This document shows positions 1,666 through 8,413 of a DNA stretch of 27,849 bases, piece by piece. Each line of letters opens with the position of its first letter. The stretch's first letter is position 1. The notes under the pieces were generated by a model. That model did not search any database. It saw nothing but the letters and a program-made list of their open reading frames with translations, and was not told the origin of the DNA. The translations under genes and the position numbers were made by a program. The DNA is from a virus. The stretch lies in IMG/VR virus record IMGVR_UViG_3300032160_001536, positions 1 to 27,849 of that record; one strand, given 5' to 3'.

Positions 1666-2208
1666 TTATAGAATCGTCTGCTTCACAATCCGCGCGCCCG
1701 TTGGCGTCCCAAATCCATTTCCACCGCGCAACAGGCCGTTCGGGAGGGTGCCGCTTCCGCTCGAGGGCAGCGGAGCAGGCCCGCTGGCGCCTCCGCCCGC
1801 CACGGCGATCGGGGGCGTGCCAAAGCTCACCGGGGCCGAGGGCTGCGAGCCGATGTACTGCGAGTACGCGCGCCAATACAGCGTCTGATTCCCCAGTTGC
1901 AGATACAAGTTTCGCGCCGCTCCCAGGAAATGCACGCGTGGCGCGGAAAACGCCGGCGTCACATCCGACTCCGCGAAATAAAAGAGTCCGGGCCGCGACG
2001 CTCCCGGATCGGTGATGGCCAGGTCAAACCATCCATTTGACGCTTGCACCTGCAGCGAAGCGATGGGCGCGGGCGCCGGCGAGGGCGTCGACGGGTCCAC
2101 ACCCGCGTTCTGGCTCGTCGCGTTCACCGCCGACACAATCTTCGTCAGCGTCTCGTACAAATACGGGTCGCGGTCTTTCAGCGGTGCCAGTTGCGCAACC
2201 GTCAGCAC
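1666..2208 (-). CDS. Hypothetical phage structural-type protein
   Basis: 180 aa, not recognised. The N-terminal helical part 'LTVAQLAPLKDRDPYLYETLTKIVSAVNATS' resembles the short helical start of some phage tail appendage proteins. A linker rich in Pro/Ala/Ser and a beta-rich segment (about 50-130; 'SLQVQASNGWFDLAITDPG', 'LYLQLGNQTLYWRAYSQYIG') follow, possibly one fibronectin-like domain. The C-terminal 50 residues are Gly/Pro/Ser-rich and disordered-looking. The start is a GTG at 2208, backed by GGGGGAG 6 nt upstream. It begins 54 nt from the divergent plus-strand gene at 2263. Confidence 0.6.
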   Translation of the reverse strand: MLTVAQLAPLKDRDPYLYETLTKIVSAVNATSQNAGVDPSTPSPAPAPIASLQVQASNGWFDLAITDPGASRPGLFYFAESDVTPAFSAPRVHFLGAARNLYLQLGNQTLYWRAYSQYIGSQPSAPVSFGTPPIAVAGGGASGPAPLPSSGSGTLPNGLLRGGNGFGTPTGARIVKQTIL

Positions 2209-2262
2209 GAAATCTCCCCCATCTTTTCGCCAGCCATGTATAAAGGAGTTAAGGTCGCTTTC

Positions 2263-3321
2263 ATGAAACTCTTCCGGGTCTTCCTGACACTTTCACTTGC
2301 TGCTCCCTGCCTCGCTCCGATTCCGCTCCTTGGACAAAACACCAACGCGCAGGCCCCATCTGCCCAGGCGAGTTCAACCTCGGCTTCCACCGCAACTCCA
2401 GCGCGGCAGGATGACGCCGCAGCTGGAGCCGCGGAGCGCAAGAGACGCTTCGATGAAGACAAAGCCGTCCTCGAGAGCGCCGCTGCCAAGCCGCAGTCGC
2501 AAACTTCACCTGACGCCAACGGCCCTGCGCCGGAACCCTGTAAAGCTTCCGAAGGCGACCTCCTGATCTCCCCCATTTTCGTCAACATGTTCGCTGGCGA
2601 CACCCACAGCTTCAGCCTCTTCGATTTCGCCGGCCGCAAGCTTACTTACCTGGCGGACTGGTCGATCGATGATTCTTACGTCGCCGACTTGACCATCGAA
2701 GACAGCATTCCCGTGCTCAAGGGCAAGCACACCGGCAGGGTGCGTCTCATAGCCCGTGTGGACTCGCATTCCGGCGAAGCGAACATAAACGTGTTCACTC
2801 ATGAAGATTTGAAGTCGGGCATCGTCACCGCCGAATGGTTAGCTCCGCCAGTTCCCTGCATCAAGCGCGTCGGGACTGTCCAACGCGTGGACTCTACCCC
2901 CATGCCGGCCCCTTGTAGCGCATCTGAAATCGAACTCGCGATCGCCCCCCAGTTCGCCGGCATCTTCGTTGGCCGAACTCAGCCCTTCAGGCTTTTCGAT
3001 GCCGGAGGACATGATCTCGCTTCACAGGCGGACTGGTCGGTCGACGATTCTCAGGTCGCCGACTTGACCATCCAAGACGGCATTCCGGTGCTCACCGGCA
3101 AGGAAACCGGCACGGTCCGCGTCACCGCTCGTCTGGACTCCCGTTCCAGAGAAGCCATCATTGAGGTGGTCACCCTCAAAGACTGGAATTCCGGCGCCGC
3201 CCACTTTTCCACTCGGCCAGTTCCCTGCTCCAGGTCCCTGGGAACCTTCCGGCCTATGCCTCCTGAGGCTCGCCGTTCTCGCTCTCCCGAAGCCGGCAAG
3301 CCCACTTCGCCACAGCAGTAA
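2263..3321 (+). CDS. Secreted protein with two tandem Ig-like (Big2-like) repeats; candidate moron
   Basis: 352 aa on the strand opposite to the phage operon. The N-terminus 'MKLFRVFLTLSLAAPCLAP' followed by 'IPLLGQ' is a clear Sec signal peptide, and the Cys within it leaves a lipoprotein possible. Residues about 30-100 are an Ala/Ser/Thr linker. Two homologous segments of about 115 aa follow, each opening with a 'PC' and carrying W-S-[IV]-D-D-S-x-V-A-D-L-T-I, then 'GKxTGxVRxxARxDSxSxEAxI', and closing with another 'PVPC'. The 'DDSxVA ... GKxTG' pattern is that of bacterial Ig-like Big2 domains. The Cys pairs could form one disulfide per repeat. The ATG at 2263 was chosen because it starts the signal peptide; 'aagg' and AAGGAG lie 8-14 nt upstream. 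An in-frame ATG at 2236 and a long upstream extension lack a sensible N-terminus. It could be a host surface protein expressed by a lysogen. Confidence 0.75.
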   Translation: MKLFRVFLTLSLAAPCLAPIPLLGQNTNAQAPSAQASSTSASTATPARQDDAAAGAAERKRRFDEDKAVLESAAAKPQSQTSPDANGPAPEPCKASEGDLLISPIFVNMFAGDTHSFSLFDFAGRKLTYLADWSIDDSYVADLTIEDSIPVLKGKHTGRVRLIARVDSHSGEANINVFTHEDLKSGIVTAEWLAPPVPCIKRVGTVQRVDSTPMPAPCSASEIELAIAPQFAGIFVGRTQPFRLFDAGGHDLASQADWSVDDSQVADLTIQDGIPVLTGKETGTVRVTARLDSRSREAIIEVVTLKDWNSGAAHFSTRPVPCSRSLGTFRPMPPEARRSRSPEAGKPTSPQQ

Positions 3322-3410
3322 GTGAAGCGGGCCCGTGAGTGGCTCGGCCTGTTCTTACGCGCTGATCGTCGCTTCTGAATTACTGATTACTTTCAACTTA
3401 TTATTTAAAA
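3322..3410. other. AT-rich gap between convergent genes
   Basis: Short spacer where the plus-strand Ig-like gene and the minus-strand nozzle-like gene meet tail to tail. It is AT-rich near 3378-3412. I see no convincing stem plus T-tract terminator for either direction. Confidence 0.4.
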
Positions 3411-6359
3411 CTAATTCACCCCCCGCACCGGCGCCCACGGATCCACCCGCACGCTCGGGATAAACCGCTGCAGCTTAAACCATGCCCCGGCCTGGTTCGT
3501 GCTCACCTGAAACGCCACGCGTTCTCCCAGCACATTGATCGGCAACTCCAGGTCCTTCTGCGCCGGCGAACTCAGCGGCAAGGGCTGTTGCGCCTGCGCC
3601 ACGCTCGAGGAATCTGTGAAGCTCGTCAGTCCCAAGTTCCCCGCCCCTTCCACGTACATGCTCAGATAGCTGAACAGTTTTCTGTGCGCGCCCAAGCCCA
3701 GCGAACTTTCCACCGCGCGCTCCGGAAAATAGTGCGTGGTGTAGTAGCTCGGAATTGCCGTGCCATCGTCGGAATACTGCGTGTCACTTAGCTGATAAAT
3801 CTTCCCGGTCGCTCCGCCGCCGCCCACGCCGGGATTCCCGCTGCCGAAGGCGGCCAGCGCCGTGCCGTTCGTGCGTTCAATCAGGGCGCAGCAATTGGCC
3901 CCGATGGACCACGGCGACCATTTCCGCGCGCTATCCGTCGCCGCTTTTCTTCCCGTGTAGGTGATGTTCACCGGGGGCCGCGAGGCCAGGTCGCTGGCCG
4001 AATCCAAGTCATGATAATCGAGCATCAGCACGCGATTGGGCGAGGTCGCGCTGCCAAACGGCGCGCCAACCAGGATGCGCCGCTGTTGCGTATCCACCGT
4101 CACCCACAACGTCTGCGCGTACTGCCAGTTGATCTGGTTCCACGTCGGCTGAATTTCCTGCGATATTTTCACTGGTTCGCCGCCGGAAAACAGGTACAAC
4201 CCCGTGCGGTGCGCAATCACCACCCAATCTTCACCGAAGCCGACTCCGCGCACCGAGGGCGTGCCCACGCCGCGCGACACTTCCGCGATCGACCATAGTG
4301 CCGGCTCATTCGTTCCATCGTCTTGCGTCACGTACAGCGAATGTTCCTTCACAAAATACAGCCGCTCGCGCAATTTGAACGCCGACCGGATGGCTTGCCC
4401 GTTGTTCTCCGCCACGCTCAGCATGCCATCCAGCCCGTCGTAGCTCTCCGGATCTTCCACGCGGCTTGCGCGCACCAGCGAAGCATTCACGGGCTGCGCA
4501 GCCGGGAAAATCTCTATCGCATCGATGTAGAACTGCCCGTTCTGATTCGGCGTGCCGTCCGCATACACGCGCAGCACCAAATCGCCAGGAATCGCCGTGA
4601 GCGGCGCTGTCAGTTGCGCGCTGTATTCCACGTATCCCGTTGTCAATTGCGTCGCGGTCAGTTGCAGCCCGGTTGTGTTGATTCCCCCGCTGCCGCTGTA
4701 GAGATGCACGTGCAGCGTCCCTTGCGTCAGCGAAGCATTGCGCGCGCACCGCGCCCGCACGGTGTAACTTGTATTCGCCTGAATCAGCGGCGCCCCCAGC
4801 GAATCCTGCACCGCGCCCTGCGTCATCAGCCCTCGCGTAGCCGTCGTGCCGTTCCCCACGATCGAATACGCCGCGCCCCACACGACAAAACTCTCTTCAT
4901 CAGTGCCGCCGGCCGCAAACGTTCCGTCGGGCGTCCAGCCCAGCGGGTAGTGCGGCAGGGACGGACCCGTGAATCCGCCGTCGAATCCCAGGTTCACCCA
5001 GTTGTCCATCTTGTTGCGTTCGCCCCACCAGAAGAGCCGCTCCGAATAGTCAATCACGCCGGCGCAGTCGCTCAGCTCAATCAGGCGAAAGAGGTTGTCC
5101 ACATTGCTTCCCGCCAGCAGGATGGCGTCGGAAAAATCCACCACCGCGGTCGTCGTGGTGTTATCGCTGATCACCATGTTCCCGCTAAACAACGTTCCGC
5201 CTCCCCCCACATAGAAGAAACTCGCGCCGCCCGCTCCCGTGAAGCACAAAATGCGCGCGACCACGTTGCTTGGCCCCGTCGGGATATTTGTGACCACGGC
5301 GCGTTTCCCGCCGCTCGCCGTCCAGCTCGTCGCCGGCCCCGGCTTTGTCAAATAGCCCTGGCGCGTTCGGAAGATCACGCTCACTTGGTGCACGCCCGTG
5401 GCAATATTCCCAGCCGCGGCCGCCGTGCCTCCGCCGGATGCCCCAAGGCCGCCGGTTGCGGCGTTATAGGTGAAGTGCGTCGAATCCGGCACGCTGGCGA
5501 CCGCAAATGTGCCGTTGTACCCGCCCACGCCCACGCCGGCTATCGTCACAAGCTGTCCCACGGACAGGCCATGTGCCGCACTCGTTTGCATCGTGACCGA
5601 TGCGGAAGCCGCCGTGCCGCCGCCGGAATTTGTCAGCCCCGCACCGCCCGCAATGTACGTGAATTGCGTCGTACTTGGGACGGACACCACCGCAAACGTG
5701 CCGTTGTAACCCGCCACGCCCACGCCCGCCACCGTGACGCTTTGGCCCGCCGACAATCCGTGCGCCGCGCTCGTCGTAATGGTTACCAGGTAGCCGTTTT
5801 GCGCCGCGCCATTCGGACTCGCCACGATCGCCACCGCAGCTGGCTGCGTCGCTCCGTTAGGGCTGGCCACGATGCCCACAATTACGTTTTCATCCACCAC
5901 CGTTGGCCCGGCGCCTGGTCCGCCCTGGCTCACGCGGTCGAAATTCGTGTCGTCGTACTGCCGCGGCAGATCATTGCCCGTCATCCCATCGCTGACCGCC
6001 AGATATTCCCTGCCGAACAATGTTGTCGAATTGGCGTATGCGTTCGCCGCCAGGCCGCTGGCAAACTGTGTCAGCGTTCCCGGCGCCGATTCCTTGTAAA
6101 GATTCCCGGCGCCATCCATGGCCAGCGTGCGCAGTACGCCGCTGAGCGTCGCAAACGTCTTCAAGTAATTCACGGTCGGATTTCCCGCCAGCGGCCCGAA
6201 CAGCGTCTGCAATCCCGGCCGCGTCGTCACGCCCCCATTGGCGAAAAAGACGTCCTGGCAATCCGGCGACACCCCATGCGGCAGATCCGCGGGTGACATG
6301 TCGCTGACCAGCCCGCCAAAAATCTCAATCGGTGCATCCAATGATCCTATCGTCGACAT
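3411..6359 (-). CDS. Large tail protein, nozzle-like, with internal repeats and a carbohydrate-binding-like insert
   Basis: 982 aa. The N-terminus contains 'DMSPADLPHGVSPDCQDV' and 'NGGVTTRPGLQ' (20-51), a pattern I associate with podophage tail-nozzle (tail tubular protein B / gp12-like) proteins. The C-terminal 400 residues ('RLYFVKEHSLYVTQDD', 'VVIAHRTGLYLFSGGEP', 'RRILVGAPFG') look like blades of a beta-propeller, as in that family. Two inserts are visible. One is a tandem duplication at about 187-315 of 'AAHGLSxGQxVTxAGVGxxGYNGTFxVxSVPxxTxFTY'. The other is a jelly-roll-like stretch at about 475-620 ('SYTVRARCARNAS' to 'QFYIDAIEIFPA') resembling carbohydrate-binding modules. The short peptide 'IVASPNGA' also occurs twice just before the duplication. 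The start has AAAAGAAG about 7 nt upstream. The nozzle assignment is moderate; a virion tail protein is likely. Confidence 0.65.
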   Translation of the reverse strand: MSTIGSLDAPIEIFGGLVSDMSPADLPHGVSPDCQDVFFANGGVTTRPGLQTLFGPLAGNPTVNYLKTFATLSGVLRTLAMDGAGNLYKESAPGTLTQFASGLAANAYANSTTLFGREYLAVSDGMTGNDLPRQYDDTNFDRVSQGGPGAGPTVVDENVIVGIVASPNGATQPAAVAIVASPNGAAQNGYLVTITTSAAHGLSAGQSVTVAGVGVAGYNGTFAVVSVPSTTQFTYIAGGAGLTNSGGGTAASASVTMQTSAAHGLSVGQLVTIAGVGVGGYNGTFAVASVPDSTHFTYNAATGGLGASGGGTAAAAGNIATGVHQVSVIFRTRQGYLTKPGPATSWTASGGKRAVVTNIPTGPSNVVARILCFTGAGGASFFYVGGGGTLFSGNMVISDNTTTTAVVDFSDAILLAGSNVDNLFRLIELSDCAGVIDYSERLFWWGERNKMDNWVNLGFDGGFTGPSLPHYPLGWTPDGTFAAGGTDEESFVVWGAAYSIVGNGTTATRGLMTQGAVQDSLGAPLIQANTSYTVRARCARNASLTQGTLHVHLYSGSGGINTTGLQLTATQLTTGYVEYSAQLTAPLTAIPGDLVLRVYADGTPNQNGQFYIDAIEIFPAAQPVNASLVRASRVEDPESYDGLDGMLSVAENNGQAIRSAFKLRERLYFVKEHSLYVTQDDGTNEPALWSIAEVSRGVGTPSVRGVGFGEDWVVIAHRTGLYLFSGGEPVKISQEIQPTWNQINWQYAQTLWVTVDTQQRRILVGAPFGSATSPNRVLMLDYHDLDSASDLASRPPVNITYTGRKAATDSARKWSPWSIGANCCALIERTNGTALAAFGSGNPGVGGGGATGKIYQLSDTQYSDDGTAIPSYYTTHYFPERAVESSLGLGAHRKLFSYLSMYVEGAGNLGLTSFTDSSSVAQAQQPLPLSSPAQKDLELPINVLGERVAFQVSTNQAGAWFKLQRFIPSVRVDPWAPVRGVN

Positions 6360-6795
6360 ATGTTCTTCTTTTGGAGTGCGGTCCCGCGACTGCGAGGCCG
6401 CTTTTGCGGTCTAAAATCCTGCTACGTACTTCATTGCTTCACGGTCTCTCGCGTCATGGCCGGTCTTTGCTCTGTCCGGGTCGGGCCCCCTTTGCTAGGC
6501 GAGCCGCCAACGTGACCACACCTCAACCCTACCCCTCGCTACGATCTTCGCTCTTCGTAGCGACGCTCGGGCCCTGCGGGGGCGCACCACGTCCGCGCCC
6601 CTCACCCCGCTCGGCAACCTCTACCCGCCCAGCAATCCATCGCTTCGGGTAGTGGTACAGGTTGAGGATTTAGGTCGGAAGATCGGCAACGAAAATGTCG
6701 TAATGGTGCTAGCTAGGCCTTTGTGGGCCAGAATACACAGCGTCAAAAATGAGTGGGACTAAGCTGAACTGCTTTGAGAAGGCAGAAGAGCACTG
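6360..6795. other. 436-nt non-coding stretch with a structured element
   Basis: No convincing gene on either strand. The middle holds a multi-branched inverted-repeat element (6521-6667, listed separately). A weaker hairpin, GGCCGC-tttt-GCGGTC, lies at about 6399-6414. The part nearest the 65-aa ORF (6670-6795) is less GC-rich than the rest of the window. Confidence 0.6.
6521..6667. ncRNA. Candidate structured RNA / DNA element of unknown class
   Basis: An outer stem joins CCTCAACC (6521-6528) with GGTTGAGG (6660-6667), extended by CTACCC (6529-6534) with GGGTAG (6647-6652). Inside are a perfect 9-bp hairpin, TCGCTACGA (6536-6544) with TCGTAGCGA (6555-6563), and a 7-bp hairpin, GGGGCGC (6579-6585) with GCGCCCC (6595-6601). 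A second CTACCC (6621-6626) could compete for the same GGGTAG. Nested stems of this kind suggest a folded RNA or the end of a mobile element. I do not recognise the class, and the strand cannot be decided. Confidence 0.45.
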
Positions 6796-6993
6796 CTACT
6801 GGTTCTTGGGTGCCATGAAACCAGTGCTGGTTATAAAATCCTCCCTCATGATGGGACTGCCAGTAAATGAGGGCTGGACGTCCAACGTGGTCACAGGCTG
6901 AACCTTAGAAGGACTGGCAATGAGGTTGACCTCTGGAGCGCCGATATCCACGGCAGGCACCTCGGTAGGGTTGAGAGGGTTTTTCTTTGTCAT
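6796..6993 (-). CDS. 65-aa hypothetical protein coupled to the SDH-type protease
   Basis: Starts at the ATG of 6993, whose ATGA overlaps the TGA of the protease gene; GGAAGAAGAG lies just upstream. The 65 residues begin 'MTKKNPLNPTEVPAVD' and are Pro/Val/Thr-rich and probably disordered. No Cys, membrane segment or known motif was found. The strict coupling suggests a partner or substrate of the protease. An upstream in-frame ATG at 7017 would overlap the protease by 28 nt and is less likely. Confidence 0.6.
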   Translation of the reverse strand: MTKKNPLNPTEVPAVDIGAPEVNLIASPSKVQPVTTLDVQPSFTGSPIMREDFITSTGFMAPKNQ

Positions 6994-8168
6994 TTCTCTT
7001 CTTCCCAGCGTTGCCATAGGACCTCCTGTCTAATCGCATCTTGCAGACTGCCAGCGAGATTCGCAGTCGTCCGCTCGATTCTGAGGTCAGTTTTGAAGAC
7101 ATCAGCACGCGCAGCCGACTCTATGTAGGCCCCCAAAATGGGGTCCAATTTCACCTTTCCTGGGGCAGCGGGAGCCCCACTAACAAAGGGTATCATTGCC
7201 GCGGCAAGCTTTACAAACTGATCTTCTTTAACCGCACCCAAAGTTATACCGGCCTCTGCAAGTGCGTGCATTTGTTGGACTAATTGCGCTGTCGAGAGAT
7301 GGGTCGGCCCAGGGACAGGGCCCGACTTGAGTTCCAGTTCTCGAAGAGCGTTGAATGGTTCCTTCAGCTTCAAATCCTCTTCATACTCACGGTATAATTC
7401 CCACATCAGCGATTCAACTTCGTCAGTTGGCGCTTCGACCTTGAGCTTAAGGTCGTTTTTTGCCTCTTCCCGGTTTATGGGATGCCCATGGTAAAACAGG
7501 TTCGATTTTAAGTTGTCGATCAGCTGCTCAATCTCATGTTCCTCCGATTCAGCCATGTGCAGTCTAAGAAGCTTCCGCGCCATTAGTCGGGATTGATTAT
7601 GGTGTCTCTGAACGTTTCCTATCGCCAGCGGATGAATCTTCTCTGTGAGCGCGACAAGGGCTTGAACCAGCTCGTCTTCATGGGTTATTCCAACGTCTTC
7701 CTTCACCAACTTGAAGAATGCGGTCACATCCTCAACGCTGATTGGAGCAAGCTGTCCCGGGGCCAGCGGATGGGGCGGATTAAAAATGTTGGCCACCGAA
7801 GGGTCTATCGGACCCAAACAACCCATCTTGTGCATTACAATCTTGTTCGCACCGAGCGCAATGAGGGTCGCAGCACTGAATGCATGCGAAGGGACGAGAA
7901 CGGAAACGTCCTTCGCGTACTGCCGAATTAAGCTTACGATGCGCCAAGGGACTGTGCCAGAGCCACCGTTGCTGTAAATAAAGAGGTCCACCCCCTTCTG
8001 TGCCAGTTGCCGACCTGCCTCCAGGTGGTCGTACATAATTCTGAAGGCATCATCGGCGATTTTAATTTCATGGCCAGGGCGAGTAGACGTAACGTAGGTA
8101 ACTAACAGACGGTGTTCCCTAGCGACCTGCAGCTTTTCGATTAGACTCTTGCGAGTGGCTCGCGACAT
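6990..8168 (-). CDS. ClpP-like serine protease of the SDH (serine dehydrogenase proteinase) family
   Basis: 392 aa with an N-terminal crotonase/ClpP fold. 'DLFIYSNGGSGTVPWRIVSL' (61-80) provides the Gly-rich oxyanion region (SNGG, compare SPGG in ClpP/SppA). 'VPSHAFSAATLIALGANKIV' carries the likely nucleophile S98, followed by the diagnostic 'LGPIDP' (118-123). These features match the SDH_sah family (ClpP/SppA superfamily). The C-terminal 240 residues are helical and charged ('EEHEIEQLIDNLKSN', 'REYEEDLKL'). SDH-type proteins are often membrane-linked, but no transmembrane helix is seen here. The gene has its own promoter-like sequence, is less GC-rich by eye than the virion genes, and interrupts the late operon, so it is probably a moron with a host-interaction or defence role. 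That role is an inference. Confidence 0.8.
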   Translation of the reverse strand: MSRATRKSLIEKLQVAREHRLLVTYVTSTRPGHEIKIADDAFRIMYDHLEAGRQLAQKGVDLFIYSNGGSGTVPWRIVSLIRQYAKDVSVLVPSHAFSAATLIALGANKIVMHKMGCLGPIDPSVANIFNPPHPLAPGQLAPISVEDVTAFFKLVKEDVGITHEDELVQALVALTEKIHPLAIGNVQRHHNQSRLMARKLLRLHMAESEEHEIEQLIDNLKSNLFYHGHPINREEAKNDLKLKVEAPTDEVESLMWELYREYEEDLKLKEPFNALRELELKSGPVPGPTHLSTAQLVQQMHALAEAGITLGAVKEDQFVKLAAAMIPFVSGAPAAPGKVKLDPILGAYIESAARADVFKTDLRIERTTANLAGSLQDAIRQEVLWQRWEEEK

Positions 8169-8188
8169 GTGCGGATCTCCGAGTGCGT

Positions 8189-8217
8189 ACTATATCCGAA
8201 AATGCCTTACGCAGCAA
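8189..8217 (-). promoter_or_regulatory. Sigma70-like promoter of the protease moron
   Basis: On the minus strand, TTGCTG (8217-8212) is separated by 17 nt from TATAGT (8194-8189). This is 4 of 6 matches to the -35 box and 5 of 6 to the -10 box. A start site near 8182 would give a leader of about 14 nt containing GGAG before the ATG at 8168. A consensus TTGACA also occurs further upstream (8263-8258), but its -10 partner is poor. Confidence 0.55.
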
Positions 8218-8340
8218 TCCTAGTACCCATACTCAACAAATAAGTAATTTCCTTAATTGTCAAGGCGTGGTCAGACATCCCTACTGCCATCGTGGGAGTC
8301 ACGCGCCGTGTAGAATTTTAGATTAAACCACCACCCCTTC

Positions 8341-8363
8341 CTGATATCTGATCGCTGACATCT
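8341..8363. repeat. 'gatatctgatcgctga' repeat copy
   Basis: The unit 'ctgatatctgatcgctgaca' belongs to a family of short tandem GATATC/GATCGCTG motifs also present at 12928, 14278, 14649 and 27197. No gene lies between the protease promoter and the hairpin at 8414. Confidence 0.7.
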
Positions 8364-8413
8364 GTTGTCCTGAAGTTGCTTCTCAGGCGTGCCCGGTGCA
8401 CGTTTCATTTTTC

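Follow-up and report, generated by a model that had tools for sequence, protein, structure and literature searches.

The interval between a tail-fibre-like gene and a conserved gene for a 180-aa protein is a diversity hotspot of variable cargo in a lineage of phages. In the window, i.e., the whole stretch of DNA that we analysed (a single 27,849-base virus record from IMG/VR), this slot is filled by a gene whose product, P0001, carries tandem Ig-like domains. We consider it likely that P0001 is interchangeable 'moron' cargo, an exported envelope protein encoded within a diversity hotspot of temperate Acidobacteriota phages. The features on which this reading is built are collected in Table 1.

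Table 1. Features of the P0001 locus and of a neighbouring cargo site in the window.
Feature	Position	Strand	Basis
P0001, secreted-type tandem Big_2-like protein (cargo gene), 352 aa	2263..3321	+	ORF, repeats, homologues, simulation
Signal-peptide-like N-terminus of P0001	2263..2334	+	Hydrophobicity; likely cleavage near Gly24-Gln25, judged by eye
Pro/Ser/Ala/Gln-rich linker of P0001	2335..2520	+	Charged stretch DDAAAxAAERKRRFDE, common to L036 and the host protein (L089)
First Big_2-like Ig domain, Cys93/Cys199	2521..2877	+	Repeat alignment, Cys pattern
Second Big_2-like Ig domain, Cys218/Cys322; the modelled domain	2893..3261	+	Weak Pfam match, structure model
Cargo insert, about 1.2 kb	2206..3410		~43 nt at the same place in three close relatives
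Conserved 180-aa phage protein, left anchor	1666..2208	-	Conserved across loci
Tail-fibre-like protein, 982 aa, right anchor	3411..6359	-	PHROG matches, locus comparison
ClpP-like SDH-type protease, probable second cargo gene	6990..8168	-	Domain matches, relatives, GC

Three close relatives (L027, L028 and L029) have the tail-fibre-like and 180-aa genes ~43 nt apart, whereas 1.2 kb separates the two genes in the window, and DNA identity between these relatives and the window is 85-92% on both sides of the insert. On the left, the insert meets the 180-aa gene at its start codon, which is ATG in the three relatives and GTG in the window; a repeat scan at the insert found no convincing terminal repeats. 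The P0001 gene is encoded on the strand opposite to its neighbours. This agrees with the first-pass annotation, which had set the gene apart from a minus-strand operon: P0001 stands opposite the virion operon, as conversion-type cargo would. No sigma-70-type promoter consensus was found for P0001, and the one terminator-like site was fewer than the shuffle mean of 2.3. In the window as well as in L036, a separate phage record with a single-domain P0001 homologue, the octamer TGTATAAA occurs upstream of the gene and weakly hints at what is possibly a promoter core.

The bacterial type of its domains and the existence of bacterial homologues might suggest that the P0001 gene belongs to a host at the edge of a prophage, or that the record is a chimeric assembly. 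We regard this as very improbable, because phage genes in conserved order lie on both sides and because the homologue in L036 sits at the same junction. A host gene at a prophage boundary, which the first-pass annotation had named as one outcome that would count against its reading, is not what we see: the flanking phage genes are nearly adjacent to each other in relatives.

The P0001 ORF runs from an ATG to a stop codon that ends at 3321, and its GC content (60.7%) is like that of the phage (60.1%). When the insert was simulated 2000 times with a first-order Markov model, an equally long open frame arose in 5 runs. Homologues from a second phage record and from a contig of a bacterial genome retain the protein far better than they retain synonymous sites; a chance ORF is therefore unlikely. 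The N-terminus is hydrophobic (12-residue Kyte-Doolittle maximum of 2.10), as are the N-termini of the L036 homologue and the host protein, which suggests a signal-peptide-like export signal. Of the 'clear signal peptide' annotated at first pass, the hydrophobic, secretion-signal-like N-terminus thus stands, while its cleavage is only predicted. By eye, P0001 contains no clear lipobox.

The linker is followed by two repeats of about 120 residues each (residues ~87-205 and ~211-333). Their local alignment scores 301, compared with a maximum of 60 in 1000 shuffles, and their identity is 55% at the protein level and 70% at the DNA level. Each repeat lies between two paired cysteines (C93/C199 and C218/C322), and such a pair also occurs in the relative L036. 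The two homologous segments with paired cysteines that had been proposed within this 352-aa ORF are therefore borne out.

What these repeats are is less evident from direct sequence comparison. Against the Pfam Big_2 profile (PF02368; curated cut-off of 22.8 bits), P0001 scored 12.5 bits (E 0.14), under the cut-off; the second repeat scored 13.0 bits (E 0.1) and the first had no match. The single-domain relative in L036 reached 20.2 bits, still below 22.8, and two of five homologous host domains passed (23.5 and 41.3 bits), while three failed (22.3, 15.8 and 13.8 bits). An NCBIfam search with P0001 gave no match, and the best hit of a PDB sequence search had an E value of only 0.76. A weak PHROG hit (E 0.0014) pointing to a MotB-like regulator was rejected, as no stretch of it passes alone.

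A structure model of the second domain, built from three sequences, had a mean pLDDT of 65.0 and 71-90 over residues 21-100, with both Cys-bearing ends below 50; only this best of five models was good, the others ranging from 49.8 to 30.2, and the full-length P0001 model was poor (pLDDT 32). Foldseek placed LigA (E 3.9e-5), LigB, the S-layer protein SbsC and a Big_2-CBM56 protein at the top of its matches, and Z scores were 12.3 for LigA, 10.0 for LigB and 9.8 for the Big_2-CBM56 protein. At the level of fold only, the model thus matches the Ig-like beta sandwich of solved Big_2 domains. Because of the intermediates and the fold search, and despite the weak direct Pfam match, we assign the P0001 domains as divergent Big_2-like Ig domains, a model-assisted assignment that links them to Big_2 through intermediates and does not call them members of PF02368. 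The Ig-like nature claimed at first pass is upheld in this form.

Ig domains of phage capsids and tails fit the model about equally well (Z 12.0 for mycobacteriophage Douge and 10.8 for the lambda tail tube), so the fold says nothing about whether P0001 acts on the cell or in the virion. These matches, the position of the gene next to a tail-fibre-like gene and the frequency of Ig-like domains on phage capsids and tails are what one would expect if P0001 were a virion decoration or tail protein. We nevertheless think this improbable, given that P0001 has a signal-peptide-like N-terminus, is encoded opposite the virion operon, has a bacterial homologue of the same architecture, and belongs to a family found at only one of the 34 other distinct junction loci described below (L036).

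The repeats were described at first pass as a recent duplication. In an 18-domain tree, the two P0001 repeats are sisters (94/92), and dS between them is about 0.45 (dN and dS by Nei-Gojobori, with values rough where dS exceeds 1). By comparison, dS is 1.7 between the first repeat and L036, about 1.1 for backbone genes between the window and L036, and 0.45-0.62 for backbone genes between the window and L027. These values indicate that the duplication is younger than the split from L036 and approximately as old as the split from the close relatives; it did follow divergence from the single-domain form, but it is not very recent.

The ratio dN/dS is ~0.8 between the P0001 repeats, ~0.1 in the tail gene and ~0.26 between the first repeat and L036, the last value being rough since dS is above 1. 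The fast divergence of the domain copies and the rarity of the family could mean that P0001 is a nearly neutral passenger whose function is not maintained. This too seems a poor explanation, since all 352 codons are open, the Cys pairs and core motifs are kept, and the comparison with L036 points to constraint. Two backbone genes share 82-85% identity between the window and L036, compared with only 43-50% for the cargo domains; the two phages either acquired members of one family independently or carry a cargo that diverged fast.

The slot was surveyed with the 180-aa protein as query, which yielded 20 loci from viral contigs and matches in 27 of the 95 genomes examined from a single bacterial order, with regions taken from 20 of the 27. 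Of these 40 loci, two without the tail gene (L130 and L139) and two with another gene order (L047 and L048) were dropped, leaving 36 with the standard order and, after two duplicate pairs (L031/L122 and L040/L133) were merged, 34 distinct loci. The gap between the anchor genes ranges from 2 to 3628 nt. It is empty in 11 loci (2-156 nt) and spans 482-594 nt without an assigned gene in 4; a small 126-aa gene is the sole content in 5, and L036 combines this gene with its antisense single-domain P0001 homologue. Same-strand cargo or extra genes occur in 6 loci (L041-L045 and L123); in L044 and L045 the genes concerned may belong to the virion. Antisense cargo occurs in another 6, comprising PAS-histidine kinases (L129, L131 and L132), an HTH protein (L134) and TonB_C proteins (L135 and L136). 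One last locus (L137) is mixed and includes an antisense SnoaL-like protein whose start looks signal-like by eye. Opposite-strand cargo is thus present in 8 of the 34 distinct loci. The 126-aa gene, absent from the window, is itself conserved between the two anchors in six loci (L034-L038 and L128).

A PADLOC scan covering part of the cargo genes gave matches, at the level of sequence only, in three slots: AbiL-like in L041 (E 6e-40), PDC-S46 in L042 (E 6e-271) and PDC-M32B in L043 (E 6e-10), the PDC entries being candidate systems. In gene content, L041 (4119-5902) holds an AbiLi/AbiLii-like two-gene cassette with PADLOC matches to AbiL and PDC-M38; L042 (3711-5876) encodes a 721-aa protein that matches PDC-S46 over nearly its full length; and L043 (3818-5847) carries an SDH-type protease with two small genes, one of which is the PDC-M32B match. 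The antisense kinases (L129:3528-6452, L131:3441-5861 and L132:3081-5945) are hybrid PAS-sensor histidine kinases with a receiver domain, and prophages bearing them may rewire host signalling.

Since defence-type genes occupy the same slot in other loci, superinfection exclusion by P0001 is plausible. A change of the lysogen's surface, as proposed at first pass, is likewise plausible as a putative effect. A narrower form of our reading holds that P0001 is a superinfection-exclusion protein that would mask a receptor or block DNA entry by related phages. The three PADLOC matches in other loci, the adjacency of the slot to a tail-fibre-like gene and the quick divergence of the domain copies are all consistent with it. 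However, the slot also houses sensor kinases and further genes that lack a defence match, and is thus not only for defence. A PADLOC scan of P0001 itself gave no match, which carries little weight; we consider this narrower form possible but less likely than not.

Relatives of P0001 were scarce beyond L036. No relative was confirmed by viral contig searches with P0001 or with the two-repeat alignment, nor by a genome contig search with the P0001 repeats; a search with a three-domain alignment returned the L036 record alone, again, and a phage collection search with P0001 gave no match. P0001 was likewise absent from all 20 terminase relatives, a result of little weight because the tail gene is present in just 5 of them.

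The window appears to have a second cargo site beyond the tail-fibre-like gene. The 2,079 nt between this gene and a 233-aa gene hold a ClpP-like SDH-type protease, and the region 6401-8400 is lower in GC (52.9%). The same interval is about 70-556 nt in 16 of 20 distinct relatives, some ends being extrapolated from partial matches, and exceeds 1 kb in the other four (L023, L032, L046 and L121). L032 has an antisense protease in this second slot that is 25% identical to the product in the window, and the first slot of L043 encodes a homologous protease with 37% identity. The protease of the window was not found at the same place in the other relatives measured; the L026 record carries the same gene. 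Because it is absent there from most relatives and has a homologue in the first slot of L043, this protease is probably a second cargo gene. Some PHROG matches name a head-maturation protease, which it probably is not. In L121, a phage relative on a genome contig, the second slot contains a retropepsin-like aspartyl protease domain (2254-2733).

Several observations connect these phages to Acidobacteriota. All 14 terminase-related loci in genome contigs carry the title Acidobacteria bacterium, Candidatus Acidiferrum, Acidipila or Candidatus Sulfotelmatobacter. The anchor genes were found in genome contigs of up to 1.6 Mb, and the lineage therefore includes prophages. Less in keeping with a temperate lineage, a tyrosine-integrase domain was present in only 1 of 11 phage records tested, which may be fragments, and that one was not the window's.

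The first-pass annotation had also proposed a comparison with bacterial homologues, and these were found. When the three phage domains were combined into a profile, 13 of the 95 genomes from the order gave matches with E values no higher than 1e-5. There were 14 such matches, 8 of them within open frames of at least 500 aa, and a shared 'PGTVRWS'-like strand follows several of the matched host domains. One protein, encoded in genome G047, has the full architecture, i.e., a hydrophobic start, the same charged linker and one domain. Its 14.6-kb contig looks chromosomal because the neighbouring genes encode outer-membrane beta-barrel, GH76, carboxypeptidase-regulatory-like and ceramidase-like proteins. 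A wider profile search of the phylum matched at least 3 of 396 genomes at E 1e-12, with only G047 of full architecture among the matches listed, which include at most five candidates per genome, so that single domains may be missed. The family is thus rare, and the genomes searched yielded a single bacterial protein with the complete architecture. In the midpoint-rooted 18-domain tree, the fork that joins the phage domains to host domains L079 and L067 is poorly supported (89/86, drawn open), and it does not include L078, the domain of the full-architecture host protein. Transfer from host to phage would be the simpler course, on which the tree does not decide.

Taken together, we propose that the P0001 gene was drawn from a bacterial pool of extracytoplasmic Big_2-like proteins and sits as reverse-oriented cargo between the tail-fibre-like and 180-aa genes. 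Its Ig-like domain has been duplicated. The gene would be expressed in the lysogen from its own transcript and its product exported by the Sec pathway. A disulfide probably closes each of the two Ig domains, which would then function in the periplasm or at the cell surface, where P0001 would most likely bind an envelope component and thereby change adhesion or block adsorption of competing phages. More speculatively, P0001 and its L036 relative might form a family of secreted Ig-domain proteins that mask the receptor of the adjacent tail fibre, such that a lysogen would be closed to phages with the same fibre and fibre and cargo would travel and diversify together; we consider this unlikely.

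Acidobacteriota viruses have been little studied (PMC11924767). The slot mapped here belongs to phages whose soil Acidobacteriota hosts are mostly uncultured, and can be recognised by its two anchor genes. A survey of its contents across metagenomes would catalogue what such phages supply to their hosts, including candidate defence systems and exported proteins. Among the literature matches listed, no title or abstract opening describes a hotspot between tail-fibre and 180-aa genes. The Tunturi viruses are likewise Acidobacteriota phages with predicted moron and host-takeover genes; the gene types named for them are different, and the main text of that study uses neither 'Ig-like' nor 'hotspot' (PMC11924767).

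At the protein level, P0001 resembles leptospiral LigA/LigB (8gyr, 2mog; Big_2 PF02368) in its Ig-like fold, weak sequence match and exported type. Unlike these proteins, it falls below the Pfam cut-off and contains just two domains, with a charged linker and Cys pairs on the domain flanks, and its surface role is putative. In role alone, P0001 can be likened to the lipoprotein Ltp of phage TP-J34, a prophage gene for an exported host-surface protein, if our reading is right; P0001 differs from the Ltp described there in that it has no clear lipobox by eye and its part in exclusion is putative (PMC3952083). At the level of the locus, the closest likeness is to the hotspots of P2-like and P4-like phages, loci of ~1-5 kb that two conserved phage genes delimit and whose rapidly replaced cargo consists in part of anti-phage systems (Rousset et al. 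2022, PMC9122126). The slot described here is also a small variable locus between two conserved phage genes, but it belongs to other phages in another host phylum, is anchored by tail-fibre-like and 180-aa genes, and also carries exported-type proteins and sensor kinases, its candidate anti-phage role being read from sequence. This kind of locus is thus known from P2-like phages, while the phage lineage, the slot and the protein family appear to be new.
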